64,000 nt of DNA from Gracilariopsis chorda. Its lineage: Eukaryota > Rhodophyta > Florideophyceae > Gracilariales > Gracilariaceae. The stretch covers positions 1 through 64,000 of the forward strand of contig NBIV01000065.1 in assembly GCA_003194525.1 (NCBI GenBank), written 5' to 3'. A program made the translations under genes and the position numbers. The notes beneath the pieces are model-generated. The model did no database searches. It worked only from the letters and a program-made list of their open reading frames with translations, and had not been told where the DNA came from. Shown piece after piece: positions 13,161 through 36,880 of this stretch. Numbering within the stretch: the stretch's first letter is position 1; every line of letters starts with the position of its first letter.

Positions 13161-13221
13161 CCGAGAGAGTCTTACTCGGAGCCAGAGGTCTGACCTTTAG
13201 GGAACCGGAGATAGTATCTCC
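13161..13221 (+). promoter_or_regulatory. Conserved hairpin module in the Copia-I leader
   Basis: Three hairpins follow each other: CCGAG-9nt-CTCGG (13161-13179), AGGT-ctg-ACCT (13086+100, i.e. 13186-13196) and GGAGATA-g-TATCTCC (13207-13221). The same arrangement with different but still paired stem bases occurs in the leaders of Copia-II (21994-22054) and of the fragment at 36839-36876. It lies about 115 bp before the gag start, so a role in packaging, dimerisation or translation of the genomic RNA is an inference. Confidence 0.75.
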
Positions 13222-13335
13222 TGCCAGTGGACCCGGCTACGCAAAAGTAGTAGAAGGATCCCTCAACCGGTAGGGGACCGGTGAAGAATTCTATTTGCCA
13301 GTCTCCGTTAGTCTCGCGTTGAGTGATACTCTGCG

Positions 13336-16300
13336 ATGGACTCTGAAACTTACCAAGAGAATAAACTTATACCCCATCTAAAAGGGGCGCCGATTAATAC
13401 ACTTGGCGCATATACATTAGGGATCTCATGCACTCCCTCCAATCATTATTCTTGCTTTCGGAACCTCGTCAAAATGAAGCATCCGCTGCAGCTCGAAAGA
13501 GATGGGACGACGCCGATGGTAAGGCAAGATCGGCCATCGTCCAAAGCCTTCACACATAGCCGATCGTCGCAGTTTCGGAACTACTCGAAAGAGAACACTG
13601 CTCTGCTTTGGAGGTATGGAATAAACTCGAGTCTACATATAAGAAGGACAACATACAATCCGAATTGAACCTCCGCCAAAAGCTAAGCACCTTGACATTC
13701 AAGGATGGCGACGACGTACAGAGACATTTACTCGAGTTGGAGACAACATACTTAGAACTTGCTAGACTGGGTGACCCACTCACGGAAAAGGAGCGAACTG
13801 TGACTCTGCTCCGTACCTTGCCAGACTCACTAATGGCAATCACATTATTGGTGGACGCAACCAACATGGAATACGATCAAGTCTTTTCGCTTGTGCGATC
13901 CCAAATGGACCGACGTGTTCATCAGGCATCGACATATACCACGAAGGCCACAGAAGCCAAGAAAGATAGCATTCACCCTTACCCCGCTGCGAAGAAGAAT
14001 AAAACCCGACGCAAGCAGCATGCAAAAGGGAACAAGAATGGAGTGATATGTTGGAATTGTGGACGCATAGGCCACATCAGGGCCGAATGTTGGCGCAAGA
14101 AAAATAAAAACAAACAACAGCCCAACAATAAAAACTCCAATAATAATAAACATAACAAAGGCGAAGGACGCAATAACAATCGAGCTTGGGACTCTAACAA
14201 CTTCACCGGCGCCCACAACCAAGTGCTACCAAACGCTAACCGCCACCACAGCGACAGAAACGGGAAGCACTACCGTGGATTCATAGCATTAGCTATTGCC
14301 AGTCTCCACCAGCACAACATAACCCCAACATGGCTGGACTCTGGGGCTAGTCATGTTTTCATCAAGGACAAATCGTTGTTCTGGGAATATAACCAAACAC
14401 CTCCGCCCACAGTAATCACTTGCGAACACCAGTCAGAGATCGTAGGTTGCGGAAAAATAAAGCTACCCTTAGGAACCGTACTCATATTACCGGCCAAACA
14501 TACTCCAACCTTCGACTCTAACTTGGTACCCTTATCTCTCCTGGTGAATTTCGTCGAGGTGCAATACTCAAACGGATTCGTAATTAAAGAACGCACAACG
14601 GGCCAAGTCATACAACACTCCACCTCGAAGAACGGACTCTATCCCCTACCGAGCCCAGTATCAAGACCACAGGTACAAGCTGCAACACATGCACCTGGCA
14701 ACAGAGCCAAGGATTGGCACAAGAAACTCGGACACCCTGGAAGAGAGCAACTCTTGACATGTATTGATTTGTGTCAAAGGGTACCTAAACTCTCTCCAGA
14801 CGAAGTCAAAAACGTCATATGCACTCCGTGCATTGACGCCGGTACCAAGCGTGCTCCACGTCGACATTCACACTCAGTAGTGCAGAGACATTTGGAGTTA
14901 ACGCACACCGACCTCACTGGACCCATAACCCCGACCTCTTTACAAAGTTCGAAGTATATGCAAGTCCTCATTGACGACAACACAAGGGCAAGCTCAATAT
15001 ATTTTCTAAGTAAGAAGAAACAATTCTTCATATCTGTCCGCTGGTACAAGGCTCGCGCAGAAACCAAACTACCTCCCAACCTAATGTACTGCGTTCGCCT
15101 TGACGGGGCGGGTGAGAATAGGTCAGACGATTTCGTCTCATACACGATGGAAAATGGCATAGTACTAGAGTTCACCCCACCGTACGCACACCAATCGAAC
15201 GGTGTAGCAGAGAAAGTCATCCAAGACTTGTGGAAGATGGCAGGAACATTCCTGTTCCCCTCCAAGCTACCGCATGAGCTATGGGAAGAAGCCATTTCAC
15301 ACGCAAACTACTTGAGAAATCGCCTACCAAATCATTGAGCAGGAATGAAGGTTCCTTACACCTTATGGTTCGGACGAAAACCGGACTTCACAAACTTACG
15401 GAAGTTTGGGCAAGATGGCCACGCGTTCATATACAGGCCTGAAACCGTCGCAAATAAGAAGTTCCTACCACGCCCTATTCCTGGACACTTCGTGGGGATG
15501 CAAAGCCCACGGAAACTGTATAGGATATACATCCCATCCATGGGAAAGGTAATAAAGTGCCGCGAGGCAGATTTCAAGGTTACCAAGGAGTCCCTCCCTT
15601 CAATCAAAGACCTTATGGATTTCTCGTCTCTCAGACGATACGAAGCCGAGAAAACTATGGGTGAAGATGATGAAGACCATCTAGACGCTTCTCTTGCTCA
15701 TTGCCTTATCGCACACTCACGCTCCAAAGACCTCCGGGATGATGGCAGAGTCCCCAAGAGCTTTGAACAAGACAGAATGATGCCAGGATGGGCAGAAGCA
15801 TTCGACAAAGAGAACGATGCGTTGGTGGAAAGAGGAACTTGGAAGCTGATTGATAGAGAACCTGGCATGAAACCATTGCCATTCTTATGGAGGTTCTTAG
15901 CAAAATTATTAAGCTCCGACCCTCCGCGTATCCTTCCAAAAGCGCGTTGCGTAGCACGGGGCGACCTGCAACGCCCGTACTTGGATTACGACCCAGACAA
16001 CTTATACGCCCCGGTTGCTCGTCTTGAAACCATTCGTCTTTTGTTGGCAAAGGCCGCAGCTCAGGGCCTGATACTAGAGACTATGGATATTAGCAATGCG
16101 TAACTGTACGGTGATCTAGAAGAGCCTCTAATCATGGAACAACCCCAAAACGCATCTGGATCCTCATTTGTTCCTGGAAATGTATGCTTGCTTCTACCGT
16201 CAATATACGGCGCAAAACAAGCCGGACAAATATGGGGATCTCTCATGCACAATGAGCTATTGTGCTTGGGATTCAAGCAGTCGAGCACCGATAGCCGACT

Positions 16301-17321
16301 ATATATATACAAGTCCAACAGCGGAACCTTAGCCATAGTAGGGGTCGTTGATGACTTACTGACATCTTGTAACTCCCGGTCTCTTCTGGAAGAACTCAAG
16401 ACAGAGATGCAGAACCTCTTTAAGGTTACGGTCCTTGGAGAGGAGAAAAGTTTCGTTGGATTTGACATAAAGAGAGACAAGAACGGAATAAAGGTACAAC
16501 AAAGCAGTTATATTGACAAGATACTGCTGGAAAATGGTCTGGCCAACTCCAACGTTGTTCGAACTCCATTGCCGTCACAATGTCACATCACAGCTCGTCG
16601 AGAGGACGAACGGCGTATTCCATCCGGCGTACATGACCGCTACCGGAAACTGAAAGGACGTTTGATGTACTTAGCCGTCTCATCGAGGCCAGATATCATG
16701 TTTGCCGCTTCAATGCTGGCAAGGCAGGTCCATGATCCATGTATGAGGCATGTTGGGCATGCAAAGAGATTACTGAGATACTTGAAGGGTACAAAGGGTC
16801 TTTGCTTGTTCTTTCCCGCCAATAACACAGCACCAATGGAGGCATACTGTGACTCAGATTGGGCCGGTTGTCGTGAGACTAGAAAGTCTACGACAGGATT
16901 ATTAATAAAGGTAAACGAAGCACCTATTATCTGGACGACCGAGAAACAACCTCTTGTTGCTCTGTCGTCTGAGGAGGCGGACTACATTGCACTGTCGTAT
17001 TGTGGAAAAAAACTAACGTGGTTGCGTAGAATATTCTGGGAACTACGCAACGAATCAGTCCTGGGGGATGAACCTCAAATTCCCCCCATATCCATAGCAA
17101 CGGATAGTTCGACTGCTTTGTCGATCATAAAGAGTCCGAACATCTGGGAAAGGAACAAGCATATTGTTCTAAAACATCACTACATAAAATAGCTGCTGGA
17201 GACCAAGATAATTGACTTGAAGTCAATAAGGACTGATGTGCAAGCTCCCGACATATTTACTAAGCCTATTGTCTTTGAAAAGCACAGGAGACTGACGTTA
17301 CTTTGTGGCTTGAAAAAATAG
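13336..17321 (+). pseudogene. Copia-I gag-pol
   Basis: The gag start is the ATG at 13336, matching the Copia-II start. Shifts scramble the frame until about 13600. From 13608 the frame is clean: a UBN2-type Gag, a zinc knuckle C-x2-C-x4-H-x4-C (C-W-N-C-G-R-I-G-H-I-R-A-E-C, about 14049), protease W-L-D-S-G-A-S-H (14329), integrase zinc site H...H...C-x2-C and catalytic D...D...E (H-T-D-L, L-D-G-A-G-E-N, N-G-V-A-E-K). Stops follow at 15336 (TGA where Copia-II has CGA), 16101 (TAA within A-Y-L-Y-G-D) and 17190 (TAG); the homologous C-terminus ends at 17321. RT carries V-V-D-D instead of Y-V-D-D. RNase H motifs (S-D-W-A-G, D-S-S-T-A) are intact. Confidence 0.92.
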
Positions 17322-17588
17322 TATTGCTACTTGTACGTATTATCTGAATAGGTTGATTTCTAACTAACCTTGCTTCTATACTACCAAGTTTTGTTTTGAA
17401 AGTAGATTCTTATATTTCATGGTGATAAGTATTGGATGCAGTAAGAGTATCATACCTTTTCCTAGACTGCGGATTTTTCCTATAAAGTTTTGCTGTGTAC
17501 AGGTTTTTAATGGTGGTTACTATGCTTCATAATCATAGAGTAGATTAGTCGCAATCTGCGCCAAATGACTTGCTTGCGAGGGACGGTT

Positions 17589-17745
17589 TGAATGGAGACA
17601 AGCTGGCCACCAGTTTGGACGTGGTTTACAGTCCACTTTTCCCGACTGGAGGCACCAAATAAATTACCTCGCTGATCTCCCGGCCTTCATGAAAATGAGG
17701 GGAGGGGGCAGACAGTGAGAAGCCACAAAGCTACATACAGCTAAA
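17589..17745 (+). repeat. 3' LTR of Copia-I
   Basis: 157-bp partner of 11763-11919. It starts TGAATGGAGACA and its last bases are ...CAGCTAAA, so the terminal CA has mutated. It is preceded by the purine run gcgagggacgg. Confidence 0.82.
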
Positions 17746-18016
17746 TTTCCGGTGTTCAATGAGGACTGTTGCGGCTATTACACGCATATCATCCACCACA
17801 AACTGAAATCTGACAAGTGATCAACGATTCCGTTTTGTCGCAGATAGTTGAGCTTTGAAGTAAATGCTGCGCTTTTTTCTGTTCTGAATTTCCGTTGAGA
17901 TTCAATTGCCCCTCGCTCCGTTTTGGCCTTTGGAAGCAATAAGATAGATAGATCACGTGGAGCCCTCCTGTTCAGGTTATTTCATTGTGAGAGATGCACT
18001 TCTCACACTATCCTGG
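17746..18016. other. Short non-coding spacer
   Basis: Contains no visible gene and ends with cctgg, the left target duplication of the solo LTR that follows. Confidence 0.5.
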
Positions 18017-18918
18017 TGTAGTGCAATACCCGCAAGCGGGACAACACACGAAGACGTTCGGAATCTTCCTCTCACGAGGGTAACACAGCGAACGGAGCCT
18101 CTCCGGATGAGTACGACGAAGTCGGGTTGTAAAGCCGAGGCTCACCCTCACGCCAAGCGGGGAGAGTTGAAACGGTAGGATTAGGATCACCACGAATGGG
18201 AAAACAGCCCTTCCAAGGAGTACGAGTCCACGTAAGTGGGGGAAGACGTCACGGGATACCGGCACGAGAGACACGCGTCAGCGGTGACGAGCAACCACAC
18301 AAAGGGGTAGGAACCACGAGAGTGGGGTAAGGGAAATACGGGGGATGCCCGATTGGGGGCGACAGGGGTGTGGGCCAACGGGACCACGGAAAAAGGTACA
18401 AAAGAACCCTATACAGGGGCGAGAACACGGCGGTGGTGAATTAAGTGACAAGTGCCCAAGGCGGTGATACTCCTAGTGACGCAGGGTGGATAGGTCTACC
18501 GTTAGTAACGCGGCTTTACCTCCGAGGAGTGTAGAAGACTCGCGAAAGCGGAAAAGACTTAGAGCCAAGAACCCTGGTTGGGGAAGTTTACTCAGTGTCA
18601 AGGCGAGGTCACCGAGCCACTATATAGTGTAGTATTCTCCCTACTGTAGCGTAGATAAATAATAAATAATAAATATAAGTTAACTAAATGTCCACACCGT
18701 GGTGCCAACCTCCTCTTGACTATCCGTGTCACACGTGGTCCACTGACGCCTTGGGCGGCACACGGCGCATGCACAGGTGTGCACCTGGCGCACAGTGCGG
18801 ATCCGCTGAGGGCTGAGACACCCCCTAATAACGGTAGTAATCATAAACACGCGAAAGCGGCAAAAACATCAAGTCCACAGGGCATCGCTGAGTAATCCTC
18901 CTTGAGGATTGCACTTCA
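18017..18918 (-). repeat. Solo LTR of the chromovirus family (902 bp)
   Basis: On the plus strand it opens TGTAGTGCAA and closes TTGCACTTCA, the mirror of the LTR at 7949-8773, so it lies in minus orientation. Five bases, cctgg, flank it on both sides (18012-18016 and 18919-18923), a perfect target duplication. No internal sequence adjoins it, so it arose by LTR-LTR recombination. It is diverged from the LTR at 7949-8773 but keeps the many mini-palindromes and the a/t-rich stretch at 18655-18680. Confidence 0.92.
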
Positions 18919-18923
18919 CCTGG

Positions 18924-20127
18924 TCAGGTGGTGAGGAGATTTTAGATACAACGGACCATCTCACCATCTTTGGGGATGGTGAAAAAGCGTCCTGTCTTCT
19001 CACCATTCCCGAGGATGGTGGGATGGTTGCTTACAATTCCGTATTGATGCGCGCATCTTAGGATAGTTGTAGTCGAGAACGACGACTAACGTCTTTCTCC
19101 ACTGGTATAAAAGGGAGAGAACAGAGCTCGGCCCTAGTCTCTCGTCTGTTCCCCAACCCATTTTTCTACATCCACTTGTCTATACTGAGCAAAAGTACTA
19201 CAGTTTTCTTGATACTAGCCGTACCTACCGCTGTATCGCTTTTTCCAATAATCGAGTTTTATCGACATTCAGAAACACTGTATGATACATGTAGGTGTAC
19301 GAGGTGGAACAAGTGACCGTGTATCCGTTCATATCCAACATGCTCAATACTAATGTAAGTTAATAGGAGCATCAAGCACAACTTTGAGCCGAAAGTGAAC
19401 CTAACAGAATGATGGATGTTTGACGGTACCCTTTTAACCCCAAACTCCGACTTGTTGTCTGCCATAAGTGTACGCCAACATGCTGAAAAGGCTGAAAGGT
19501 TGTTGGTCTCCGTTAGAGACCCAATCGCCTGTCCATTTCGCTTCCCTCGTTGGCAGAAGGAAGACCGTACACCTTGTGAATGCGGATCGGCTTGTACCCG
19601 CCATCATGCGATCCAATCGCCGACCGAATCAAAAGGTGCAGGAAAGCAATAATCTTCTTCAACAAGACACGCTTCGTTGTCGCGCGATTGAGGCTGACCG
19701 CCTCCGTTAAGTGAGGCACCCACTCTTATCGCCAAACAATTGGTGAAAGCATGCTTAAAGCTTAACCTCGAAAAATGTTCGTGTACCTTTTATGGCCGCG
19801 CGACAGTGTTTCGTCTTCAATGCCACAAGGGCCGAGTCACGTTTCTTGCCCGTGACAAAACATCACGAACCGTATTTCGCAAGTCTGTGCTTGTGGACGA
19901 CTTGTTAAATGTGATTCTGTTTCTTGAAGAGAAAACTGGGCTGTAAAGTGTTGGGTCTTGTAACGAGTAGTGGAAGTTATCGAGGGTATATAAAAGCCAC
20001 CGGATGCATGCCTCAAGGTAGAAACGCATTCCGCTAGGCAGCTCTCTCAATGTACGTCTGACGGGTCATTAGCATTTCTTGCCTTCCGCTCTTCTCCGCA
20101 ACACACGGTTGAAACATTCCGGTCAAC
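18924..20127. other. Non-coding region upstream of the GH6 pseudogene
   Basis: No gene recognised. It holds paired CACCAT...ATGGTG words (18955-19025), a TATA-like tataaaag at about 19106 followed by a pyrimidine-rich stretch, and at about 19495-19610 a minus copy of a dispersed repeat also seen near 55860, 60660 and 62500. A second TATA-like box (tatataaaag) at about 19989 lies 130 bp before the GH6 start and may be its former promoter. Confidence 0.5.
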
Positions 20128-21200
20128 ATGTTCACGTTGGCTCTTTTGGTTGTCCGTCTTTCATTGGTACCATGCGTTTGCAACCCATTCAAAGGGCATC
20201 CTTTCCACGTCAACCCCGGGTACAGTGAACAGATACGACGAACAACATCCACTTCGAAACCATCCGATCAAAGGCTTCTTAAACCATTTCTAAACGTATG
20301 AACAGCAGTATGCATAGACAAACTCTTTCGTACAGATCCATCCAACACGTCCGACGTCGGCACTGTAATGGGAACACTCACAAACGCGGCATCACAATCT
20401 CCAATTCCGATTGTGACATTTGTGGTGTACAATGCCCCCAATCGGGATTGCTCTACAGAAACGTCCGTGGGAGAGATATGCTGTCTTAAACGGTAGGATG
20501 GCAGTTGTGACTTTAAATCTCCTTCTTGTAATGGTGGCTATTCAGAGTATCGTATGGCGTATATAGATGTGCTTGCAGTGATGGTTGGGGAGTTTTGTGA
20601 TCGAGTTCCAATAGCGTTTGTAATCGAACCAGATTTGATTCTGAACCTGATTACTAATCTGGATAATGATAGATGTGGAGTGAATGATCAGTTACCACAA
20701 CGGCATTCCATGCGCAGTGAATGCCATCTCGCCAGCATGTGCTTCGGACAGTATCTGCGTTGACGGTTGGCTCGGATGAGAAAGCAAAGCAGAGGGATAC
20801 TTATCGGAAATCAAAGTGATGAACATTGCGCATTTGATAAAGGGATTGCGGTAAACGTGGCCAACTACCAACCACTCACTCGGTATTCGATGCGAGACCA
20901 TCGGCATGTGTGATGGCGGTAACAGTACCAACAGTACCGACCTGTGCTGCAAAAAGCACCCCTGTGAGCTATCATCAGGGTTTAATGCAGGGTTCACCGA
21001 ACTGAACATGAAGACGAGGGAGGCAGTACAAGGATTTTAACCGCACTTCATCATCGACACATTTAGAAATAGAGTGGAAAATGCAAGACAAGCGTGTGCG
21101 AATTGGTGCAATATACGCGGAGCTGGCATTGGAACATTTCCCACTACGGACACGGACAATGAATTGATAGACGCCGACGTATGGATTAAACCACCTGGAG

Positions 21201-21411
21201 TGTGAGGACACGCAATTTGTACGGCTGCACTATCGGCTGTTGTAATTCAGTGTCAGTTGCATTTGTAATCTTGTCCAACTCTCTTGATTACAAATGCAGA
21301 CCTCTCCTAATTACGTACATTTTAATTAGAATTGTAGGACTATAAAGAGCGGCCGGCGGCGCTGACCTGAGCACCACCGGCCGGAGGAAACACCCTCCAC
21401 AACCTTTCACA
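21201..21411 (+). repeat. 5' LTR of Copia-II
   Basis: TGTGAGGACACG...CCTTTCACA, 211 bp. It contains an internal inverted repeat (gcatttgtaatc / gattacaaatgc, about 21259-21306), a TATA-like actataaag at 21340 and a palindromic ccggccgg context near the 3' end. Confidence 0.95.
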
Positions 21412-21423
21412 TGGTAGCACTCG
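21412..21423 (+). other. Primer-binding site of Copia-II
   Basis: TGGTAGCA directly after the LTR, complementary to the usual initiator tRNA-Met 3' end, as in Copia-I. Confidence 0.65.
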
Positions 21424-21993
21424 CTCAACCCTCCCCGCCGCCTCTCCCCTCGACAACCGCTGACCAACCTTCAACCGGCGCTCCGCAACGCTCTGTACCG
21501 AACCATTCCTTGGACCCACGGAAGCATCAACATACAACCTTTCTCTTCTCGCTGATAAAGGGCTTTTTTTCATCTTGTATCTTTGTGTTATTTGTTTTTC
21601 TTCTTTTTTTCATCTCTTTTCGTCGAACGGATAAAGGCGTGGTAGCTTGCAAGCTGAGCACCGGTACGGGAATCGATTGGGCACTTGAAGTAATCTGCTA
21701 GATTTGACATTCCTTCCGGATAACCGGCTCTGCTGGGGTAGGCTCTGTCTGCTAGTGGTGACACGGTGTGTCGTCGTTTGGCCCAAGCTACCGCATACGC
21801 CGGTGGAGTTTTGTACTATCTCCTTCAACCTATCGCTCCGCAGAACGCCGCGCAGCATTCCTGCAAGAGGCCAGAAGGGGTCAACTGGTGAAAACTTATC
21901 TTCAGTTAGTAACCTCCCTTGGAAGCTTCGTAAGGATTCAAGGCACTTTGCTTCTTTTCGCGAGAAGCTTAGCAGGCAGATCAAAGCGACTCA

Positions 21994-22054
21994 CCGGGAG
22001 AGTGTGACCCGGTTCCAGGGGTTGAACCCTTAGGGTAGCGGAGGTAGTTTCTCC
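21994..22054 (+). promoter_or_regulatory. Conserved hairpin module in the Copia-II leader
   Basis: CCGGG-9nt-CCCGG (21994-22012), GGGTT-g-AACCC (22019-22029) and GGAG-7nt-CTCC (22040-22054). The stems differ in sequence from Copia-I but keep pairing, and the 9-nt loop of the first hairpin is conserved (agagtgtga versus agagtctta). Confidence 0.75.
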
Positions 22055-22182
22055 TGTCAGTGCGCCCGCTCGAAGGAAGACTAATAAAAGGTACCTCGCT
22101 AGCCAGAGGTCAAGCAGACTAACAAAAGGTACCTCGATAACCAGAGGTCAATTCACTCTTTCTCTACTCACAAGGCATCAAC

Positions 22183-25100
22183 ATGAGTGAGAACAGAGAA
22201 GAAGGCAAGCGCACTATTCCCCGCCTTAAAGGATCCTCGGACTATTACACATGGAGGATCTACATAAGGGACTTGATGAATGTTGACCAAGTTCTCTTCG
22301 TCTTAACCGAACCCAGACCATTGGAAGGCGAGAGCTCAGCCCAAGCCCGCCGCCGATGGGATGATGCGGATCGAAAAGCTCGTTCGATTATTGTTCAAAA
22401 CCTTGGAACACAACCAGTAGTTGCCGTTTCTGAATTACTGGAACGCGAACAATGTTCTGCGTTGGACGTCTGGAGGAAACTGGAGGGTACGTACAAGAAG
22501 GATAACATCCAAACCAAGATGAACCTTCGACAGCGCCTGAACAATCTCGTTTTCAAGGACGATGGAAATATCCTTGAACATCTCCACGAAATGGAAACAA
22601 TCTTTCTAGAACTGGCACGCCTAGGAGATGCTCTCAACGATAAGGAGAAAACTGCTTGCTTACTCAGAACTCTACCAGACTCTCTTATGGCTATCACACT
22701 ACTTGCAGACGCCAACGATATGGAACATGACCAAGTTGCTTCTTTGATAAGATCAGAAATGGACAGACGCAAACACAGGGACTCGAGAAACCAAACAAGC
22801 CCCGCACCTCCACCACCAAATACACAGCACCCCTACATGGCTGCGAGAAAGACATCCTTAATTTCCTCCGTGAAGAAAAGGAAGTCTAAATCCGTTAGAT
22901 GTTGGCATTGTGGAAAACTAGGTCACATTCGTTCCGAATGCCGGTTGAGAAAAGAAAACAACCCCAACCAAAACCATCGCAGGGGTCCCCAAGCCAACAA
23001 ACACAAACACCAACCATCTAGTACTGGAAACAGGAACTGGGACTCCAACGGAGGATCAAACAAACCCTCAAGTCACTACAACCGCAACCCCCAGCCCCGA
23101 GGTTTCGTAGCTATTGCCGAAGCTAAATATTGTTCAGTGAACAATGGAACTACAACCTGGCTGGATTGTGGAGCGACTCATGTGTTTGTAAACGACAGAA
23201 ACCTCTTCTGGGATTATGAGCCTGTGGAAAATGAGTCCGTCTGAACATGCGACAGACAATCGGAAATAGTTGGAGCAGGGACAATTATGCTGCCAGTAGG
23301 AGACGGAATAAGGTTACCTGCGAAGCACACACCTTCGTTTGACTCAAAACTTATTTCATTATACGTCTTATCACAGCACACAAACGTTTCCTTTTCCAAC
23401 GAAGACTCCTTTCATGGATTTGTCCTAAGTGACGTCAAAAACGGGAAAGAACTTCATCGCTGCAAAGCTAAAAGCGGTTTGTACCCACTACCAAAGCCGA
23501 TCGCTCCATCGACAGCCCAAACCGCACAAGTCATGCCCGGAAACACAGCAATTGACTGGCATGAAAAACTCGGACACCCCGGCAAGGACAGGTTGCTTCG
23601 CACAATCCCGCAATCTTCAGGAATTCCTAACCTTCCGCCGACGGAAATCGAAAATATACATTGCAGTCCATGCATTGAGGCAAAATCGAGGCGATCTCCA
23701 ACCCAACGCTTGCATTCAGTGGCAAACCAACCCTTAGCTTTGACACACACAGACCTCACAGGCCCAATATCCCCACCTTCGTTACAAGGATCAAAGTACA
23801 TGCAGGTACTACTTGACGACAATACAAGGGCATCATCAATATACTTCCTGACTAAGAAAGACCAATTCACGCAATCAATACGTTGGTACAAGGCTCTCGC
23901 AGAAAACGAACAACCCCAAAACCGTTTGTACCGCGTTCGCCTCGACGGAGCTGGTGAGAATAGGTCTAATGAGTTCATCCATTACGCATTAGATAACGGG
24001 ATCCTCTTGGAGTACACTCCTCCGCATGCACATGAGTCTAACGGCGCAGCGGAGAAAATTATCCAAGACTTATGGAAAACGGCCAGAACTCTGCTCTTTG
24101 CATCAAAATTACCACTCGAACTATGGGACGAAGCGATATCGCATGCAAACTGGCGGCGAAACCGCCTTCCAAACTCACGACTCGACATGAGAATCCCCTA
24201 CAAAGAGTGGTTTGGACAGAATCCATCGTTCGATACATTACTGAAGTTTGGACAAGATGGCCACGCCTTTATATACAGGTCGGAAACCATTCCCAACAAG
24301 AAAATACTCCCACGCGCCATCTACGGCCACTTCGTTGGAATGGAGAGCTTCCAAACACTGTATCGGGTATACATACCTTCCCAAAAGAAAGTGATCATGG
24401 TGAGGCAAAGGGACTTTAAGATGGCCAAGAAAAGACTGCCTTCCATCAACGAGCTTCTCGACTTCTCGTCCTTGGGCAGGACAGAAGCAGAAGAACGTAA
24501 TGACGAAGTGGATGAAGAACACTTGGACTCAGCTTTGGAACATTGTCTAGTGGCACACACTCGTTCAACAAATAACAGTGAGCTGGACAAAGTACCAAAG
24601 ACATTTTCCCAAGCAAGGACAATACCAGAATGGGCAGACGCAATCGACCGAGAGTATGACGCTCTCATCGAACGCAAAACATGGAAGCTCATTGACCGAA
24701 AACCAGGAATGAACCCAATCCCATTCCTTTGGACATTTACGGCAAAACAACTCAGCGCAAAACCTTTGGATATCCTTCCTAAGGCACGTTGTGTAGCGCG
24801 AGGGGACATGCAGAAACCGTACATCGATTACGACCCTGAAAACCTTTATGCCCAGTCGCAAGACTTGAGACAATAAGGTTGGCATTGGCAAAGGCTGCTG
24901 CGCAAGACCTTTTGCTGGAAACAATGGATATCAGCAACGCCTACCTGTACGGCGACCTCGATGAACCATTGATCATGGAACAACCCCAGAACTCGTCTGG
25001 AACTTCATACGTTCCGGGAAAAGTATGTCTACTGCTGAAATCATTATACGGGGCAAAGCAGGCTGGACAGATCTGGGGATCGTTTCTACACACGACGTTG

Positions 25101-26403: not shown

Positions 26404-26614
26404 TGTGAGGACACGCAATTTGTACGGCTGCACTATCGGCTGTTGTAATTCAGTGTCAGTTGCATTTGTAATCTTGTCCAACTCTCTTGATTACAAATGC
26501 AGACCTCTCCTAATTACGTACATTTTAATTAGAATTGTAGGACTATAAAGAGCGGCCGGCGGCGCTGACCTGAGCACCACCGGCCGGAGGAAACACCCTC
26601 CACAACCTTTCACA
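26404..26614 (+). repeat. 3' LTR of Copia-II
   Basis: 211 bp, identical by eye to 21201-21411. It is preceded by the purine-rich gcgagggacag. Confidence 0.95.
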
Positions 26615-28459: not shown

Positions 28460-29698
28460 ATGGTGGAAATCCCTCTCAAGTCCCAGTTCGTCAGTCTCAT
28501 CGTAACCCTTATCTCTGGCCTAGCCGAGCTCTTCCTCTTCGGTGCCCTTCTCGGCTTCAACAAGTACTCAGAATGCATCGCCCTGCGAAAAGGCCGGCAA
28601 GTAAGCGTTCGGCTGCATCGAATTCGAGCCAAATTCCTCGCCGTTCTGGCAATGGTTGTCTTCATCTTTCTCGAAGTCATCATGTCCTTCTTCAGTGACC
28701 CCGCCATCGAGATCAAATTCCGCACCGATGAGTGTCTCGCCGTCGACCGAATCGACCTGCGTGAAGGCTTCACCGGCGACACGAATGACGAGGATTTCAT
28801 CCTTATTCGATGCATCGGTATCAAGAAAGACGGCTTTCTTCAACGCGCCGGGAATTTCAGCCTCAACCCAAACACAAAAGCGAGGGTGCGATGTGGTAAA
28901 CATGCACTTTATGAATATCCCAACGAGGATGACCTCCAATTCACTCTAACCAACGTCACCCGTACCGGAGGTACCGACACAGACCTAGTCCTCGAATGCA
29001 TCCTTCCCACACCCGCTGTTGGCGAAAAACCCCCAACTGAAAGACTCTGTGCCGCCGTCAGACAACTTCCACCAAATTCAATCGGTTTCACCAACGTCTA
29101 TCTCTCTGCTGCCGTTCGCGAAAGTGAAGTTGGTCCACTTGTAAACCAACAGGTGGTCATTCCGTTCTTGGAAACAAGCGTTAGATACAACACCTCTGGC
29201 CTCTCCCGCAACTTCGCCAGGCGTCTCTTGCGCGCTTATGATAAAGACGTCACCGATCCCATGGAGATTCGCAAGCGCGTCTTCATGGGAATCGAACGGA
29301 GAAAATGTGCGTTTGAACACAGGAAGAAAGATCTCACCACAGTGCCTCTCGGTCTTGTGTACGGTATCGTCGCCGCATGGATCTTATCATTCCTCACATT
29401 CGCCAGTACCCTATTGTTGAGAAGAAGTATCTTTTATGATATGAGTGATCCACTTCATTGGGCCCAACGCACGTATCGTCATATCGATGAGCCGATCGTT
29501 GGAAATCCAGTCGTTACAAGTGTCTATGAACACGGAGAACGACTAATGTACGTGTCCGGCTCCGCTTCTAACGACGATGATCTACTGTCTAGAATGAGAA
29601 ATATTCGCATTACTTGGCCGTGGAGGAGGAGGAACAGGGACAATGCTCCTAACGTTGAAAGACAACACTCATTTGTTGAACAACAGGCAAATGTGTGA
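28460..29698 (+). CDS. Three-span membrane protein, function unknown
   Basis: The first ATG of the frame is at 28460, after a pyrimidine tract; the frame upstream opens only with a TTG. The product is 412 residues. Hydrophobic segments lie at about 12-33, 59-78 and 296-319. Between the second and third lies a 215-residue soluble loop with six or more Cys and several N-glycosylation sequons (N-F-S, N-V-T, N-T-S), so this loop is probably extracytoplasmic. The C-terminal ~95 residues are polar with a W-P-W-R-R-R patch and would face the cytosol. There is no intron. I recognise no family; a lineage-specific surface protein is likely. No TM helix carries obvious transport motifs. Confidence 0.75.
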   Translation: MVEIPLKSQFVSLIVTLISGLAELFLFGALLGFNKYSECIALRKGRQVSVRLHRIRAKFLAVLAMVVFIFLEVIMSFFSDPAIEIKFRTDECLAVDRIDLREGFTGDTNDEDFILIRCIGIKKDGFLQRAGNFSLNPNTKARVRCGKHALYEYPNEDDLQFTLTNVTRTGGTDTDLVLECILPTPAVGEKPPTERLCAAVRQLPPNSIGFTNVYLSAAVRESEVGPLVNQQVVIPFLETSVRYNTSGLSRNFARRLLRAYDKDVTDPMEIRKRVFMGIERRKCAFEHRKKDLTTVPLGLVYGIVAAWILSFLTFASTLLLRRSIFYDMSDPLHWAQRTYRHIDEPIVGNPVVTSVYEHGERLMYVSGSASNDDDLLSRMRNIRITWPWRRRNRDNAPNVERQHSFVEQQANV

Positions 29699-30601
29699 CA
29701 AACATCCCCAGCCCACTTCGCCACTCTTTTCTAGGTCTCTTCAACGATCTTATCCCTGCACATCTCCCCGTACTTGCCCATTCGTTTCACTCCCGTCTCT
29801 CTGGTTCTCCGTTCCCGGGCTCCGTGGTTTTACCTGCCTTTTTCGCTTTCTGTACAGCAGCGTCATGCTTACGTGAGTCCTCGTCTCCGTGCGCTCCGCT
29901 CGGCCTGCGCGCTAAAAGCTTTACAACTCGTTTCTTTCAATGGCCGTATTGTGTACTACCTTCAAGCAACCACTACTCCAGATCATACTTTGTGATCGTC
30001 AAACGTGGAAGAGTGCCCGTTTCTCGCCCTAAAAACCTCGCAATCATGAACGTGCGTCCCACACCAAGGGGAAGGTCATCCATCGGTTCTTCACAAGGCC
30101 GTCGAAAACAACGCCCAACTGTCCCCCGACTGTAGCGTCGCAAAGTTAGTATCTACAATAAACGCCAAAGAAACGTGCCGTTCTCGTTAAACGGCTCACC
30201 TACTACAGGGTACGCCAAAACATGCACGCGCTTTTCGCAGGACTAGCGGACTGCTAGCAATCTAACCCTGGGATACTAAAAGAGCACTTCGCGGTACAGT
30301 GCCTCCCTACTAGTCTCGAGTCGATTTTCTCAACCCAACCAAACGAGCGGTGAGACGCGTGTCTTTTTCGCACACCCTTGGTAGTTGGCAACTTGGTAAG
30401 GGTTACGTCTCACGTTCCACGCTCCGCTCACCCCATGCAGCCATTCCCACTGTATGCTGTACCGGCCAGTCATGACATCATGCACGATAACTACAAGACA
30501 CATGCTTTACACAACAAACTATTCTATTCCACAGTACGTACACCAAAATATAACCCTTTGACTCTCCCCTGTCCCTATTTAACGCGCGGGCAACCACTTC
30601 A
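29699..30601. other. Intergenic, convergent 3' flanks
   Basis: About 900 bp between two converging genes. Short open frames (29695-30135, 30378-30770) show no coding character. It should hold both polyadenylation regions; AATAAA-like 'caataaac' occurs at about 30152. Confidence 0.45.
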
Positions 30602-32026
30602 TCACAGCGTGAACTCATGCCCATCTACAAATACGCTATTGAGCTTGAGATTAATTATTGCCACTCCATTCGTTTCCCTCTGCTTCACAGCGCGTACAAA
30701 AAAAGTTGCATCCGCTTCCAGATCCGATCGTTTCTCCTTCATGATCGACTGCAGCAAACCCAACGTGTGATTACACCCGTCAACTGTTCGACGCACGTAG
30801 CACTGCCGATTCAAAGCAACCACGAGATGGGCTTTTCCGTTTCGTGTATATTCCACCTCCGGGCCCTGTACGCGTGTCCAACCCTCTTTTCTAAGGCGGT
30901 AATACTCTTCAGAGTTCTCATCAACACCGCTTAGTATGGATTCACGAAATAATTCCACGGAATTGCGTTCGATTTGATAGAGCACTTTTTCACTCATTTC
31001 AATCTCTATAGCGGAGTGTCCTTCGCATACCGACCAGGGACTTTGCTCTCGTTCCAACGAGCCATCAGTTCCAATGCCATCATGATACAACAACGTCACA
31101 TTTTGGACCGGCACGTATGGCAGCGTTGTCCCATCCGGATAATGAAACCCAAAGTACGTTATCTCTGTGCCGTCACAAGTTTCATCCGGTTTGAATGGGG
31201 TGTACAGTTGGAATTTGCACGGCACAACGGGATGTTCATCCACCATTTGTGCAAATGCCGGACGACGAATCACGCATTCACGGTACTTTTCCACGTATCC
31301 TACAAACGCGCTGTCATACTTTCCGGTTGTACCCGCCACCTCGATGCCTGTTTGCAACGTGTAGCACTGTTCTGTTGGTCGTTCGAAGTCCCATGTGTCC
31401 GGGGGGTCGTTCACCACCCAGGTCTCGTCCGGCGACAACCACGGCTCGTCTTTCTCGGGGTTTGTAGGGGCGCTCATTACCCATGGGGTACATTCGCTGT
31501 TGTCCGCTTCCCACGTTGAAGCGTGCTCTGAGCGCGGAGAGGACGGCGTCGATACAGAAGACCAAGCGCCAGTATCAGGCCAGGTATCCGTGTCACTTCT
31601 AGTCAAGGGGAACCAGAGCTTGTCTGTGGTTTCAACCGGCACCTCGAGGTAGCCTATACGGCGCTTCAGTCTCTTGATCTTGCTCTTCTGAATGTTCACC
31701 TTTTTCTGAAGAGTCTTGACGCGTTTCGAAGCCTCTTCTAACTCCTGCTGAGTGCCCTCGGACTTCACTTTTGCCTCCGCTTCCTGCAACTTCGCGTACA
31801 CATCCTTGCTGCTTGTGTGCAGCGTCTCGGCATGGGAGATCAGGTCGAATAACGCGTCGTTAACTCTCTGAAGATGCGCTACCGGCACGAACTCGTTCCC
31901 GTCGATCACTCGACGGTTTTCCCTCAGCATGCGTTCGGCGCGCTCAAGGGATTGCGGAAAGTGCACCAAATCGAACTCGATGTGCAGTTGACCACTCTGT
32001 TCTTCGTTCTGATTGGGAGGATCCAT
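30602..32026 (-). CDS. Coiled-coil protein, function unknown
   Basis: The ATG at 32026 is the first in frame (seven codons upstream the frame opens only with TTG), giving 474 residues. Residues about 60-135 form a coiled coil rich in Lys/Glu (A-K-L-Q-E-A-E-A-K-V-K to K-I-K-R-L-K-R-R-I). A Ser/Thr/Trp/Asp-rich spacer follows to about 215, with several D-T-W repeats. The C-terminal ~250 residues are mixed and globular-looking, with G-F-H-Y-P-D-G-T-T and E-G-W-T-R-V-Q-G-P-E motifs. There is no signal peptide or TM segment, so it is probably intracellular. I recognise no domain. The gene is unbroken and intronless. Confidence 0.72.
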   Translation of the reverse strand: MDPPNQNEEQSGQLHIEFDLVHFPQSLERAERMLRENRRVIDGNEFVPVAHLQRVNDALFDLISHAETLHTSSKDVYAKLQEAEAKVKSEGTQQELEEASKRVKTLQKKVNIQKSKIKRLKRRIGYLEVPVETTDKLWFPLTRSDTDTWPDTGAWSSVSTPSSPRSEHASTWEADNSECTPWVMSAPTNPEKDEPWLSPDETWVVNDPPDTWDFERPTEQCYTLQTGIEVAGTTGKYDSAFVGYVEKYRECVIRRPAFAQMVDEHPVVPCKFQLYTPFKPDETCDGTEITYFGFHYPDGTTLPYVPVQNVTLLYHDGIGTDGSLEREQSPWSVCEGHSAIEIEMSEKVLYQIERNSVELFRESILSGVDENSEEYYRLRKEGWTRVQGPEVEYTRNGKAHLVVALNRQCYVRRTVDGCNHTLGLLQSIMKEKRSDLEADATFFVRAVKQRETNGVAIINLKLNSVFVDGHEFTL

Positions 32027-33139
32027 TGGGAGAATAGAAGAGCTCAATCGATCAACGGTTCTTTGTTGTTTCTTCGGGGGGCTGGGTGGATGTATGCTGG
32101 AAAAGCAGGTGACTCTAACAGCTCTCCTTGCCAGGGCAGGCTGGAAGAGCAGTGGCGCATGTGTTTAAGTACTGAAAACGAAGCGGAAGAGAAGTGTTTA
32201 AGAGGCGTTCTTGCGAATACGGCTATTCCGCTGGACAAGTGCGCGTTTACCGACGGTAGGAGAACGCGCCACACACGTTCGGAACGCACTCTACATGGCG
32301 CGGAGGCCCTTCTGAGGGGTCCCGAAAGAAAGAGGAGCTTGAAGCGTTTCGGGTGTTGCGCTCCCTATCCAGCCGGAGCTCCGAAGGGAGGGCCAGCTTG
32401 AAGTCGTGCCGTTCACGTATACCTCTTCGGGACAAGCCCCGTTCGGACTGACTTGTTGTGGCCGGAGAAGACAGCTGCTTCTGTAGCGCATTGGTGAACT
32501 GGAAGCATCAGTGTCGGTCAAGTGTCTGTGAGAGTGTCATGTTAAGGGCAGTTTTGTAGGAAGAATTTTGAACGCTTGGTGTGTTTCCCGCTGCAGGCCG
32601 GCTGATTTGGCGCGCCGTGTATGTTGGTGTGGACGACTCTGTGAATGTGTGGCTGTAAGCCTCACTTTCACATGAGCTCCCGCACGGGTGGAAACCTAAC
32701 AGACTGTTCCGCTAGTTAGAAAGTTTAGTCTAGTTACTCCACTGTCTCGGTCTCTACCCTGAAAAAACAGATAGACAAGTTGAAGATTAGCAGTAAAGGG
32801 TAATACGGTTGTCCGTATCCGACTGCGGACAGAGGCTGTTGTCAGCTCTGGTCTTCAAAGTCTATTCTACTTTACTCTACCAATTATCCTACAGGTTTCT
32901 AATCGACCGTTTGGGTTGGATACTGTTGGACAGCCACCCCTTCTTTTGTCCTAAGTAAAGAAGTACATATGAGACTGGATCTCAAAATCTTATGCGGACA
33001 GTCCCTCTCGCTCCTTCCACTAAAACCTTCCACTCTCCGTTTCGTTCACTACCACCGCCTCCACCACCAGAACCTAAGCGCTACCGCTGCGCCCCGCGCA
33101 CCGAACCGCATTCTCGTCCATCCCTCCCCGTCCACCAGT
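32027..33139. other. Intergenic, promoter side of the coiled-coil gene
   Basis: 1.1 kb. The first few hundred bases should hold the promoter of the minus-strand gene. A G-rich segment with palindromic words lies at 32270-32420. No other gene is supported. Confidence 0.4.
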
Positions 33140-33253
33140 ATGTTTCGTCAGACTGCCGCCACCGCGCCCCTCGTACAGCCCACGCGCGTCTCTGCCCAGA
33201 GTGCCGCCTTCTTCACGATGCTCACCGCCTATACCAAATACGCATTCCAATAA
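33140..33253 (+). CDS. Possible 37-residue small protein
   Basis: An ATG at 33140 opens 37 codons ending in TAA. The peptide is Ala/Thr-rich with a hydrophobic-aromatic end (F-F-T-M-L-T-A-Y-T-K-Y-A-F) and a basic, acid-free composition like a mitochondrial presequence or very small organellar membrane subunit. The frame extends upstream to an ATG at 32969, but that part is Pro/His-rich and looks non-coding. It could equally be a chance frame or the first exon of something not visible. Confidence 0.2.
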   Translation: MFRQTAATAPLVQPTRVSAQSAAFFTMLTAYTKYAFQ

Positions 33254-34267
33254 GCTTTCCGTGAGCATGCATTTCGCAAAACGCAAGCTATAATAATAAT
33301 GGATCTGTTTGCTTTCAAACCCAATATTTGGGCGCCTGCGCAAAGTTGCAAGCCCGCGCACCCACTGCAACTAATCTGGTGCTGCAGTGCCTCGCGCAGG
33401 AACGCTTAGCGACACTTGCGCCGCCACCACCCGCAGTACGACATCTCTATTGCAAGTTATACACACAAAAAAAGAAGTTTATTGGCATCATACATAAAGA
33501 TGGTAGCATATATTAGTCATATCTTTGCCATTCTACATCTGCTGCTGTGGCCACAGAGAGTATAAAATCCCTCACAAGGGCACCCCGACGAATCCGCGCA
33601 ACAAATACCATTCCTTTGAGATTCTCATTTATATAGAACAGGTAGAGCCGCTCAAACCAATATTTATGAGAAGGCTGCAGCTCAACTACTTTCTGGTACC
33701 TCCCCGTTAGAGCCAGGAGTAGGCAAAGAAACTAAGTAACCGCGTAAGATGGGTTGATGGCACTGTCCTGAAGCGTCACAAGGTACTATGCCTGAATGGA
33801 GAGCACTTTTTCGGATAAAAGCCTGGCCTAAGAAGCTTGGTCATCGATGAAAGGACTGCGTTTACAAGATGGTTCCGGAAACGAGTCGTCGGATATCTCT
33901 CGAGCGAGCCAGGTGACATACGGACGTGCATGTTTAGACGTCATGATGTGGTTGGAGCAATAGTGCTGCAATCGTCTTATGAGGGCACAAGGTATAAAAA
34001 AACCAAAAATACCCTTTAAGGTACAATACCTTTCGCCAAACTGGTCCTTCACGGCGAGGAAATGTCTTATAACCATTTGTTTTGATTTGTTACTTATACC
34101 TAGTATGCAAGACTAGAGGGTATTTATATTTACCGATTGCCTATTAAAGCGCGAGTTTGGTGGCCTCCAAGCCAACTCCGCCCAGACCACTTCTTCTCCG
34201 TTTGGCAACCCCTATCTTCTCCAAGAGCAGTCTGGTCCTCCCTGCCATCAACCAAACTTTTCACCAC
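33254..34267. other. Non-coding spacer before nested LTRs
   Basis: No gene seen. A TATA-like gtataaaatc lies at 33560. Open frames under 85 codons show no features. Confidence 0.4.
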
Positions 34268-36011
34268 TGTGATGCAACGCCCCAAAGGGGAGAAACACCG
34301 AAAGACGTTCGGGATCTTTCCTCCGTGGAGTTGAAACCAGTTGAGTAGAGCCCCTCTAGGGGTGGCACGGCGGAGCCGGTTTGTAAGACCGGGGCAACCC
34401 TTTGCGACTAGCGCAAGAGGGTTTAGGAAAAGAATCGCTATCCGCGAGAGCGGGAATGCGTCCACGCCAGAGGTAGGTTTCCACGTAAGTGGAGGTGTGT
34501 GAGCGGATGCGCACACGAGAGCCGCGGTTAGCGGGAGGTGCTACCCTAAAAAGGGAAAAATGGAAGGGCGAAGATGTAGTGCAATACATTCCCGCGTACG
34601 GGCGATGGTGAAACTCATATCTGAGGTGTACTCGGTGCGAGCGATGAAGCGGGATGCATGAATTTTAGCCCCCGTTTACCGGGCTAATTGGCGGTCGGGT
34701 TACCCAGGGTGGTTATGGGAACATTCATATTTTGTGGTACCTGCCTGGCAAGGGTGGTGGACACGTGGCTACAGCCCCGGCCAGGAGGCCCAAAACGGCT
34801 ACTTATTTTAGTATAGTTTAGGGGTTAATTTTACTTAGGCTAGTGCACTACCTACTGTACTGCACTGAGCTAGTACTTGAGCGTCGGCCGCACGGCGGCG
34901 AGCTCACCAAGAAAAGTAACAAGAGTTCGGCTCTGACTCTATTCGCCATGCGAAGTGTCTAACTCCTCGCGGAGGTACACCGCTTGCCCGATAGTTTCAC
35001 CCGACTCGCACCACCGAGGAGACCGTGCTCGTCGTACCCAGTGGGTTGTGACCACTCGTGGTATTCGTTGTTGTCGTGTGACCGCCCGTACAGGCCCTAT
35101 CTCCGCCCCAGTTTTGGGTATTGATATTACCGACGTGTGTCGTGAGACCGTGAGACCATCCCTTCCCCTCATACCCCCTAACCGCCGCGCGGTGCGTGTT
35201 CGTGTGTGTGTATCGGCACCCCCCTCCGGGGTCTGTTCCCGCTTTCCGCACGCCCCCGTCGGGTGGTCCCTTTCCCTCTTTTGTTCCACTGTTCCCAGGC
35301 TACTTCCGGACCAGCCGTGGTTCCGACCCGTTCTAACCCCTAAACCTCCGAGGTACATCCAGGCTCCCGACGGAGTTACACCCGTCATACGGGACACGGA
35401 GGGCTCTACCCAGCTGGGCCTACCTCTCCAAGAGAGCAAGGCTTCGAGCTGCCTTGGGTGCCTTTCCCACACCGGGATTGCACCACAGAAGAGGAGGAAG
35501 AGAGGACGAAGTGAGTCGCGAGAGGGACGGGGGTGAACGGCGATGCCGGTAACAATATCCCTATACAGGGCGAAACTCCAACGCAATTGGAATAATATGA
35601 CTCCCAGTGATGGGTCCCTTTAGATGTCCAAGGGGATTAGATGTCCCGTGGTTCACGGCGTTTCCCTCCAAGGAGGAGTAGAGCACGCGCGCAAGCGGTA
35701 ACAACTAGAGCCAATTCCCCAGTTTGGGGTCCCTTGTTGGGGAAGGTTTACTGGTGCGACAGCAGTGCGCCGTCGCACTAAGTACTAGCTTCCCAGAAAT
35801 GGGTGTGAAAATAATAAATAAAATCAACTAAAATACTCCACATTTCGTGGCAACATCCACTACTGTGGCCAACCGCCAATTGACCCAAAACCGTGTCCCA
35901 CGTGTCCATACCCACCGTTGTGGGGCGTAGTTCATATACACACTACACAACCGATAATATCGGGAAAACAATCAAGTACCGGGAATCCCTCCCTGAGGGC
36001 GTTGCACTTCA
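34268..36011 (-). repeat. Solo LTR of the chromovirus family, interrupted
   Basis: On the plus strand it opens TGTGATGCAAC and closes GTTGCACTTCA. Without its insertion it is about 826 bp and matches the reverse complement of 7949-8773 closely. No PPT or internal sequence adjoins either end. The 5-bp flanks (accac and gcagt) do not match, so the copy is old or recombinant. A second LTR sits inside it at 34575-35487. Confidence 0.85.
34575..35487 (+). repeat. Nested solo LTR (913 bp) inside the LTR at 34268-36011
   Basis: It opens TGTAGTGCAA and closes TTGCACCACA and is flanked by gaaga on both sides (34570-34574 and 35488-35492). Removing it and one gaaga restores the host LTR exactly as in 7949-8773. 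Its end resembles the end of the LTR at 7949-8773, so it lies in plus orientation, opposite to its host. Mini-palindromes are frequent here too. Open frames within (34939-35586) are not genes. Confidence 0.93.
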
Positions 36012-36102
36012 GCAGTCAAGAATCTCGTACCCAATGAAATACGTATATTCTGCAGCACTTATCGTCTTGGCATCAGTGCTGTCGGTCGCCAAATTGGTAA
36101 AA

Positions 36103-36880
36103 TGTTCCAGCACTGCTGGAACACACGTTTAGAGTGCTCCAGCAGTGTCTGAAGCATTCTAAGCTTCGCTGGCCCAGCATTACCACTGTACTTCGGTGAT
36201 GCAGGCGCCAGTTGCTAAATTAATATTGGTTAGTGTGCAGCACCAGAGGCTTCTGGAAGCCAATGGAGTAACCTAGACGCACACATGAGTAATTATAAAG
36301 TAGTAATGCGTTTCTGTGTTGTTTTGAATGCTTTTTGACTCTATAAAAGGGCGACTTGAGTCTCAAACTTTAGTCTGGACTCATGTCAAGAACGAAATCA
36401 AGACTTCTTCACCTCCACAACTTTCTTCTCAACTTTTAGTATCAACCATCAACTCTCAACCGCACTTAAGGATGCGCTTACCCCTTTTTGCATAATTTAG
36501 GTGGTGCATTACCGTCGCTGAGACCAGTTAAAGCGCCGTTGGCGTGAACAAAAGTCGGGTAGTTGTAACAAAGGCGCTTCTGTCATCTGTGAGCCCCACC
36601 AGAGCGTTGATCTGATAATTTTGACGGTCGAAAGACCTGGTGGTTTTCGGACGGAGTTGCTTGACGGGAGCTGTCCGCAGGCGACTTGTTGTGCAACCTC
36701 TTCTGCAAAACGCTAGATTTGGTATAGAGTGAAGGCATATACCGCTGTTAGTAGCTCTTCTCTGGAAGCCCTGTAAGGATTGTACGGACCTGCTTTTGGT
36801 TTGTGCAGAAGTTGGTAGGCTGGATAAATCACTTTACATCCGGAGTGTCTTACCGGAAGCCAGGATTCTGAGTCCTAGTG
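36103..36880 (+). repeat. Third Copia-like LTR/leader fragment
   Basis: A perfect 19-bp palindrome, GTTCCAGCA-c-TGCTGGAAC (36104-36122), starts the block. A TATA box (ctataaaagg) follows at about 36340. The segment 36730-36876 aligns with the 5' leaders of Copia-I and Copia-II, including the GTTAGTA...GTAAGGATT block and two of the paired hairpins. No gag or pol follows, so it is a deleted or non-autonomous relative. Confidence 0.6.
36839..36876 (+). promoter_or_regulatory. Conserved hairpin module in the third leader
   Basis: TCCGG-9nt-CCGGA (36839-36857; loop agtgtctta) and AGGATT-ctg-AGTCCT (36862-36876). They correspond in order and spacing to the first two hairpins of the Copia-I and Copia-II leaders. 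Confidence 0.7.

Follow-up and report, generated by a model that had tools for sequence, protein, structure and literature searches.

A conserved RNA domain in the leaders of Ty1/copia elements and in Ty3/gypsy long terminal repeats of Gracilariopsis chorda

Three copies of a leader module in one 64-kb window

The sequence analysed here, hereafter called the window, is a 64-kb stretch of contig C65 (NBIV01000065.1) from the 91-Mb genome of the red alga Gracilariopsis chorda. The window contains two Ty1/copia elements, which we refer to as Copia-I and Copia-II, and a third locus that is a solo Ty3/gypsy long terminal repeat (LTR). A 213-position model of the region that they share finds exactly three places in the window at E-values up to 0.1 (Table 1). 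A first-pass annotation of this DNA had pointed out two small hairpins (H1 and H2) in all three copies and a further hairpin (H3) in the first two, and each of these is present. The module to which they belong extends far beyond the roughly 60 nucleotides (nt) described at that stage.

The first two copies lie in Ty1/copia leaders, as Copia-type gag and RVT_2 sequences are found downstream and a primer-binding site (PBS) upstream. The two leaders can be aligned over approximately the extents given for their modules in Table 1, and in alignments the 5' half of the Copia-I module has clear relatives only among other Copia families. Two repeats were also seen in these leaders: an internal direct repeat of ~175 nt (75% identical) upstream of the Copia-I module at 12141-12401, and, in Copia-II, a tandem repeat (AGACTAAYAAAAGGTACCTCG...CCAGAGGTCAA) at 22078-22152, downstream of the module and ahead of gag, with a possible small hairpin in each unit.

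The third copy had been read as a Copia leader as well. We reject this assignment, as the copy at 36839-36876 sits in a solo Ty3/gypsy LTR. This LTR has its own boundaries with a target-site duplication and is 87.5% identical to the LTR of L051 over 1070 nt, and the internal part of L051 has no match within 35801-37400. Among the relatives of the third copy, 14 of the 40 listed form seven same-strand pairs with a spacing of 5.675-5.684 kb. One relative locus that was fetched has 1066-nt LTRs (97.7% identical) enclosing gypsy-like frames. A second has 1039-nt LTRs (99.7% identical) around Pfam matches to aspartyl protease, RVT_1, RT_RNaseH, Integrase_H2C2 and rve, that is, around the protease, reverse transcriptase, RNase H and integrase arrangement by which Ty3/gypsy LTRs are recognised. 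In the register of H3, the gypsy copy is unpaired (TTGA/TTTG). Near this LTR we also observed one of two inverted 524-nt copies (7949-8472 and 35488-36011) that are 94% complementary and separated by 27 kb; 68 nt lie between the second copy and the solo LTR.

Table 1. Positions of the modules, their helices and associated landmarks in the window
Feature	Position	Strand	Details
Copia-I 5' LTR	11767-11919 (approximate)	+	PBS TGGTAGCA directly after; 3' LTR about 17593-17745
Copia-I leader module	12808-13236	+	cmsearch with model R1, 222.8 bits, and alignments; 3' core 13024-13236
Copia-I helix Pb, GGAAT/ATTCC	13031-13035/13090-13094 (span 13031-13094)	+	encloses Pc
Copia-I hairpin Pd, GTTCTG/CAGAAC	13114-13132	+	helix search, RNAalifold
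Copia-I hairpin H1, CCGAG/CTCGG	13161-13179	+	9-nt loop; sequence, RNAalifold
Copia-I hairpin H2	13184-13198	+	sequence, pairing count over 29 sequences
Copia-I hairpin H3, GGAGATA/TATCTCC	13207-13221	+	weaker: 78% of cells paired, all copies
Copia-I gag AUG, probable	13336-13338	+	by-eye comparison with L069 frame; decayed copy
Copia-II 5' LTR	21201-21411	+	PBS from 21412; 3' LTR 26404-26614 identical
Copia-II leader module	21640-22069	+	cmsearch with model R1, 218.5 bits; 3' core 21860-22069
Copia-II helix Pa	21859-21862/21933-21936	+	helices Pa, Pb and Pc span 21859-21936
Copia-II helix Pb, GAGGC/GCTTC	21867-21871/21925-21929	+	Pc in same region
Copia-II hairpin Pd, GCTTCT/AGAAGC	21950-21968	+	RNAalifold
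Copia-II hairpin H1, CCGGG/CCCGG	21994-22012	+	sequence, RNAalifold
Copia-II hairpin H2	22017-22031	+	sequence, pairing count
Copia-II hairpin H3, GGAG/CTCC	22040-22054	+	sequence
Copia-II gag AUG	22183-22185	+	
Solo Ty3/gypsy-type LTR	36080-37143	+	5-bp duplication AGTGC at 36075-36079 and 37144-37148
Module core within gypsy LTR	36702-36913	+	cmsearch with model R1, 183.6 bits (R1 includes this copy)
Gypsy hairpin Pd, CTTTTG/CAGAAG	36793-36811	+	RNAalifold
Gypsy hairpin H1, TCCGG/CCGGA	36839-36857	+	sequence
Gypsy hairpin H2, AGGATT/AGTCCT	36862-36876	+	sequence
Counterpart of gypsy gag AUG	37132-37134	+	12 nt short of LTR end; comparison with L071

One conserved sense-strand RNA domain

One conserved sense-strand RNA domain is present both in leaders from several Ty1/copia families and in the LTR of a Ty3/gypsy family, and the hairpins noticed at first pass form its 3' part. 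Its core of ~210 nt contains six covarying helices: a stem made up of Pa, Pb and Pc with a long closing loop is followed by the hairpins Pd, H1 and H2, and in Copia by a weaker fourth hairpin, H3. The long loop is highly conserved in Copia-A and gypsy copies (e.g. GUUAGUA) and altered in Copia-B, a second Copia group described below. This 3' core is common to the copies studied; the 5' half of the module varies by family, with clear similarity confined to some of the Copia groups.

Helices were sought in a 12-sequence alignment, blind to the hairpins already described, with stems of at least four pairs and the best 40 listed. Pb and Pd, neither of which had been named before, ranked first and second, H2 third and H1 eighth, with overlapping or unconfirmed alternatives at ranks 4-7. 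A 33-pair structure fixed on these 12 sequences was next examined in the 19 clusters, out of 27, that had no representative among the defining 12, with an alignment built from sequence only. In this hold-out set 86.2% of cells were paired, compared to 36.3-54.4% when partners were slid by 1-3 columns, so the prospect that most other copies would fail to pair did not materialise. Further pair types appear in the held-out clusters, for example GC and TA in Pb and CG in Pd. On a tree they contain 18 pair-keeping double changes versus 2.4 with shuffled partners, a number reached in 0 of 5000 shuffles. An excess is also observed when gypsy is left out of the hold-out set (7 versus 0.9; 0 of 5000) and across all 27 clusters (26 versus 3.25 ± 1.9).

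When helices were added to the structure, 84.2% of cells were paired across 29 sequences (74.4% shuffled; 37.6-52.3% slid). RNAalifold, given the alignment of these 29 sequences only, predicted 29 pairs that comprise Pa, Pb, Pc, Pd, H1 and half of H2; H3 was absent from this prediction. In 23 of the 29 predicted pairs both sides have changed in a compensatory manner. G-U cells outnumber A-C cells (104 versus 37), which points to the sense RNA as the structured strand. Compensatory changes are thus found in sequences outside those that defined the structure, as expected of a conserved structured RNA, and the earlier proposal of a selected RNA structure whose stem bases change in pairs is borne out in many more copies, including the held-back clusters.

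Several results weigh against this interpretation. Some of the hold-out clusters (Copia-I, Copia-IIb, gypsy) come from families that the defining set already includes. The covariation above background that had been anticipated is seen in the tree-event test but not in a pair test: an R-scape-like G-test with average product correction and our own tree-based null, applied to 59 sequences, brought none of the 28,920 pairs of columns below E = 0.05. A few big, deep clades dominate this test. Folded one sequence at a time, the three regions have ordinary energies (z = 0.90, -0.43 and -0.83). Pair breaks on the tree number 84 versus 55.4 in shuffles, with 4998 of 5000 shuffles having as few or fewer; this excess is due in part to more cells starting out paired and to many copies being decayed. 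Finally, a pseudoknot candidate in the loop (GGTGA/TCACC) is paired in 87% of cells, yet the tree test counts no double change in it, and an outer helix, Pe, pairs in only 53% of cells. Neither is an established part of the fold, and we retain the pseudoknot as a conjecture only.

Distribution across superfamilies and position relative to gag

A 20-place conserved-loop pattern occurs at 187 places in the genome versus 0 when read backwards, and a looser loop pattern at 217 versus 3. Model R1, searched over 67 sources, gave 73 matches with E-values from 1.4e-20 to 1.9e-55. This search left out L001, L003-L009 and L013, which are near-duplicates or window copies, and L068, the sole fetched match to the looser pattern with unrelated-looking surroundings.

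Copia-B was located via its gag protein, and 3 of 3 fetched leaders carry the core. A Copia-B 20-mer is present at 279 genome places versus 0 backwards. Among 150 gag places listed (from 1129 first-look candidates), 52 lie on contigs C1-C408. At 43 of these the exact Copia-B core is found 339-387 nt upstream on the same strand, and at none of the 52 was it found downstream or on the other strand. One of the nine places without an exact core (C212:116997) does carry the module; the rest may have a divergent core or lack one.

Gypsy LTRs therefore share the domain with two or more groups of Ty1/copia leaders, and profiles built from Copia sequences cross these boundaries. A Copia-only profile finds the window's gypsy copy (as L013) by nhmmer at E = 8.3e-20, and a sequence-only Copia-A profile of 22 clusters finds the copies in gypsy LTRs (E = 7.6e-17 to 2.2e-24) as well as the leaders of Copia-B (E = 4.6e-12 to 8.7e-18). 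Core identity is 54-61% between gypsy and the Copia-A groups or Copia-B, 53-62% between Copia-B and the Copia-A groups, and up to 81% among the Copia-A groups. As the gypsy core is no more distant than that of Copia-B, exchange fits better than descent from a common ancestor of the two superfamilies. From these identities we infer that the sharing came about by recombination between element RNAs and not through a remote common ancestor. The module had been suggested to have outlived the LTRs of its elements, and its occurrence in two superfamilies goes beyond this. It is possible, though speculative, that Ty1/copia and Ty3/gypsy elements have exchanged a mobile, cis-acting RNA domain and that both keep it just before gag, either as a signal read by the host or through the sharing of particles. 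Unlinked element families would then compete or cooperate through one RNA code.

There is a precedent in pararetroviruses, where, according to the cited part of one study, recombination makes noncoding regulatory sequences alike between species within one host (PMC5491270). That case resembles ours in the sharing of noncoding control regions by recombination, and differs in that it lies between pararetroviruses, whereas here a covarying RNA fold is shared by Ty1/copia and Ty3/gypsy (PMC5491270). Sireviruses likewise show noncoding conservation across divergent Copia elements, but the cited part of that account concerns polypurine-tract, LTR-repeat and border motifs and mentions neither a folded leader domain nor sharing with gypsy (PMC2829016). 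Separately, evenly spaced same-strand cores were observed at ~5.68 kb on C10, multiples of ~4.06 kb on C281 and ~5.84 kb on C184, which suggests tandem element arrays with shared LTRs.

The known RNA families that we searched do not include this domain. At gathering scores, Rfam returned no match to the module in the whole window, with a single tRNA elsewhere, and a lenient search of the Copia-I leader (11700-13700) gave three weak, sub-threshold matches only. A ribozyme or tRNA-like identity was rejected given the lack of an Rfam match and of any ARAGORN prediction (bacterial mode). A protein-coding module was rejected because each of the three forward frames contains 5-17 stops in 12 representatives, although open stretches reach up to 129 codons. 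Viral relatives were sought with three patterns in IMG/VR; the 16 stretches returned included 0 with a model match at E up to 1 and are taken as chance. No such domain is described, by title or abstract, in the open-licence PMC literature searched. To our knowledge, no retrotransposon leader is known to have a covariation-supported fold across many families and in both Ty1/copia and Ty3/gypsy. The domain constitutes a new RNA family with an unusual distribution, within the known class of retroelement leader domains.

From the end of the module to the gag AUG, the distance in Copia is 99 nt (Copia-I), 113 nt (Copia-II), 101 nt (L069), 101 nt (L058) and 129 and 128 nt (Copia-B), and in gypsy 191 nt (L071) and 218 nt (the window's solo LTR). 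The order of landmarks is PBS, module and AUG in Copia, and module, AUG and LTR end in gypsy, where L071 has its gag AUG within the 5' LTR, 12 nt from the LTR end, and the PBS presumably follows the LTR. As the order relative to the LTR end flips while the distance to the AUG is fairly steady, the module appears to be tied to gag and not to the LTR border. This placement, in the 5' leader and near gag, is that of a psi-type element. Since the module comes after the PBS in Copia and before the LTR end in gypsy, priming, one of the roles proposed earlier, is less likely. Three minor features of these regions were noted. The bases following the L071 LTR (TGTTACTCTCGAG) have no initial TGG, which is usual for a PBS. 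A small hairpin of GAGT/ACTC type lies immediately 5' of the gag AUG in several Copia families (13319-13336 in Copia-I; also L058 and L069). In the gypsy LTR, CGTCAC/GTGATG flank the AUG (by eye).

Copia and gypsy leaders are poor in AUG. Six leaders totalling 5087 nt contain 7 ATG versus 45.1 expected from dinucleotides, and the other five orders of the letters A, T and G occur 35-79 times. This sum leaves out L078, in which the motif did not locate the gag start, the decayed Copia-I (4 ATG in 1415 nt) and the ATG at the LTR-PBS border; counting began at the limit of the fetched sequence for the two Copia-B leaders and at a start inferred from the TATA box for the gypsy leader. Upstream of the module, again without the border ATG, there are 0 ATG in 225, 707 and 680 nt (Copia-II, L069 and L058), 2 in 887 nt of decayed Copia-I (8.3 expected) and 1 in 120 nt of gypsy L071 (1.1 expected). 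Between the module and the gag ATG there is none in 6 of 6 tabulated leaders, but several of the 27 cluster representatives, many of them decayed, have an earlier one, for example at 21, 29 and 60 nt past the module in L043, L072 and L073.

In 4 of 4 Copia leaders (including 11919-12032 and 21411-21701 in the window; L069 and L058), the border of LTR and PBS (caTGG) forms an ATG that opens a reading frame of 13-96 codons. These frames are out of frame with gag and end at least 480 nt before it, and an AUG-poor stretch follows. The border ATG itself is unavoidable, since the LTR ends in CA and the PBS starts with TGG. Given the scarcity of AUG, scanning or reinitiation past the fold looks likelier than an internal ribosome entry site (IRES). 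Ribosomes would thus scan or reinitiate along a leader obstructed by the fold, which makes a regulated leader likely and an IRES unnecessary.

Possible roles and neighbouring features

Among LTR elements, structured leaders are known as individual cases, from Ty1 and retroviruses. The retroviral psi or 5' leader is an AUG-poor, structured region between the 5' end of the RNA and gag, and the packaging region of Ty1 extends into gag. The domain described here resembles psi as an AUG-poor, structured leader preceding gag, but it has no Rfam match and is present in two superfamilies of one genome, and its psi-like role is putative. For Ty1, the cited part of the literature places a packaging region at +230-580 and describes packaging and dimerisation functions and a 5' pseudoknot bound by Gag, mutations in whose stems left packaging undisturbed (PMC8396678). 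The two cases are alike as structured 5' regions of Ty1/copia-type RNAs; they differ in that the present domain is untranslated and common to gypsy LTRs, and the cited Ty1 text makes no mention of sharing with Ty3 (PMC8396678). BARE, in the part of the account cited, illustrates the general problem of one RNA serving two uses (PMC3735527).

By analogy to the Ty1 5' region and to this problem, we prefer a psi-like domain. Ranking the candidates in this way, a packaging or dimerisation domain that also tunes translation seems the most likely, a host-factor site comes next, and an IRES or a shunt is less likely. We tentatively propose that the module is a psi-like cis-acting leader domain, functioning in packaging, dimerisation or as a translation switch, and that recombination between element RNAs would have brought it into both superfamilies. 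The domain would act in cis on full-length sense RNA, as in a retroviral 5' leader, and Gag, which is of zinc-knuckle type in both superfamilies, or a partner of Gag would recognise it and so select and pair genomic RNAs. The occupied domain would hold back translation, and scanning of, or reinitiation on, the AUG-poor leader would allow Gag to be made. Zinc knuckles were identified in Copia by Pfam (zf-CCHC) and in gypsy by eye, as two CX2CX4HX4C motifs that Pfam did not report. The module supplies an alignment, a consensus structure and natural compensatory variants with which retrotransposon leader function can be tested, and whether superfamilies share cis signals within one host becomes a directly testable question.

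A point against a psi-like role is that Copia and gypsy Gags differ and need not read the same signal, and the sharing is accounted for no less well by a host factor. Such a factor, a protein or ribonucleoprotein, might bind the domain for nuclear export, stability or localisation of unspliced RNA, in the manner of a constitutive transport element, so that both superfamilies would profit via their common host and not via a common Gag. The presence of the domain on sense-strand RNA in two superfamilies with different Gags, and the equivalence of gypsy-Copia and Copia-B to Copia-A core identities, are in keeping with such a site. However, an export element would not need a steady place before the gag AUG (99-191 nt) and no host factor is known, and we consider this explanation rather doubtful.

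An IRES that recruits ribosomes upstream of gag was our leading idea when the stretch from module to gag proved free of ATG in the tabulated leaders, and a long, structured leader at a steady place before gag would suit it. It was demoted once the whole leader proved ATG-poor, as an IRES would not require ATG to be rare upstream of the module too. The earlier ATGs in L043, L072 and L073, the lack of a match to any Rfam IRES and the differences between families in AUG-adjacent sequences also argue against an IRES, which we judge unlikely.

Reinitiation or shunting, in which ribosomes would translate the reading frame at the LTR-PBS border and then pass over or through the module to the gag AUG, is very unlikely as the main role. 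In caulimoviruses a short 5' frame ends just before one long hairpin, and ribosomes are shunted or reinitiate. In favour of such a device, the 4 Copia leaders have out-of-frame border frames followed by an AUG-poor stretch. Against it, the border ATG is forced, the frames vary in length, that of Copia-II ends within the 5' half of the module, and no single long closing hairpin was found; moreover, the observations on these frames come from Copia leaders. Common descent without special function, or a DNA-level promoter or enhancer with pairing that reflects chance or shared ancestry, could draw on the ordinary folding energies and the G-test without significant pairs, but is strongly disfavoured for the core by the hold-out covariation, the tree-event test, the bias to G-U over A-C and the compensatory predicted pairs, and we regard it as most improbable.

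Elsewhere in the window, a 599-amino-acid frame at 37639-39438 has domain matches to a methyltransferase, R3H and a 2H phosphoesterase (2H-SAK), an unusual-looking combination, and a 1596-amino-acid open frame on the minus strand (39590-44380) has a borderline IPT/TIG match only. A tRNA found by Rfam at 46906-47004 was missed by ARAGORN in bacterial mode, and its length of 99 nt suggests an intron.

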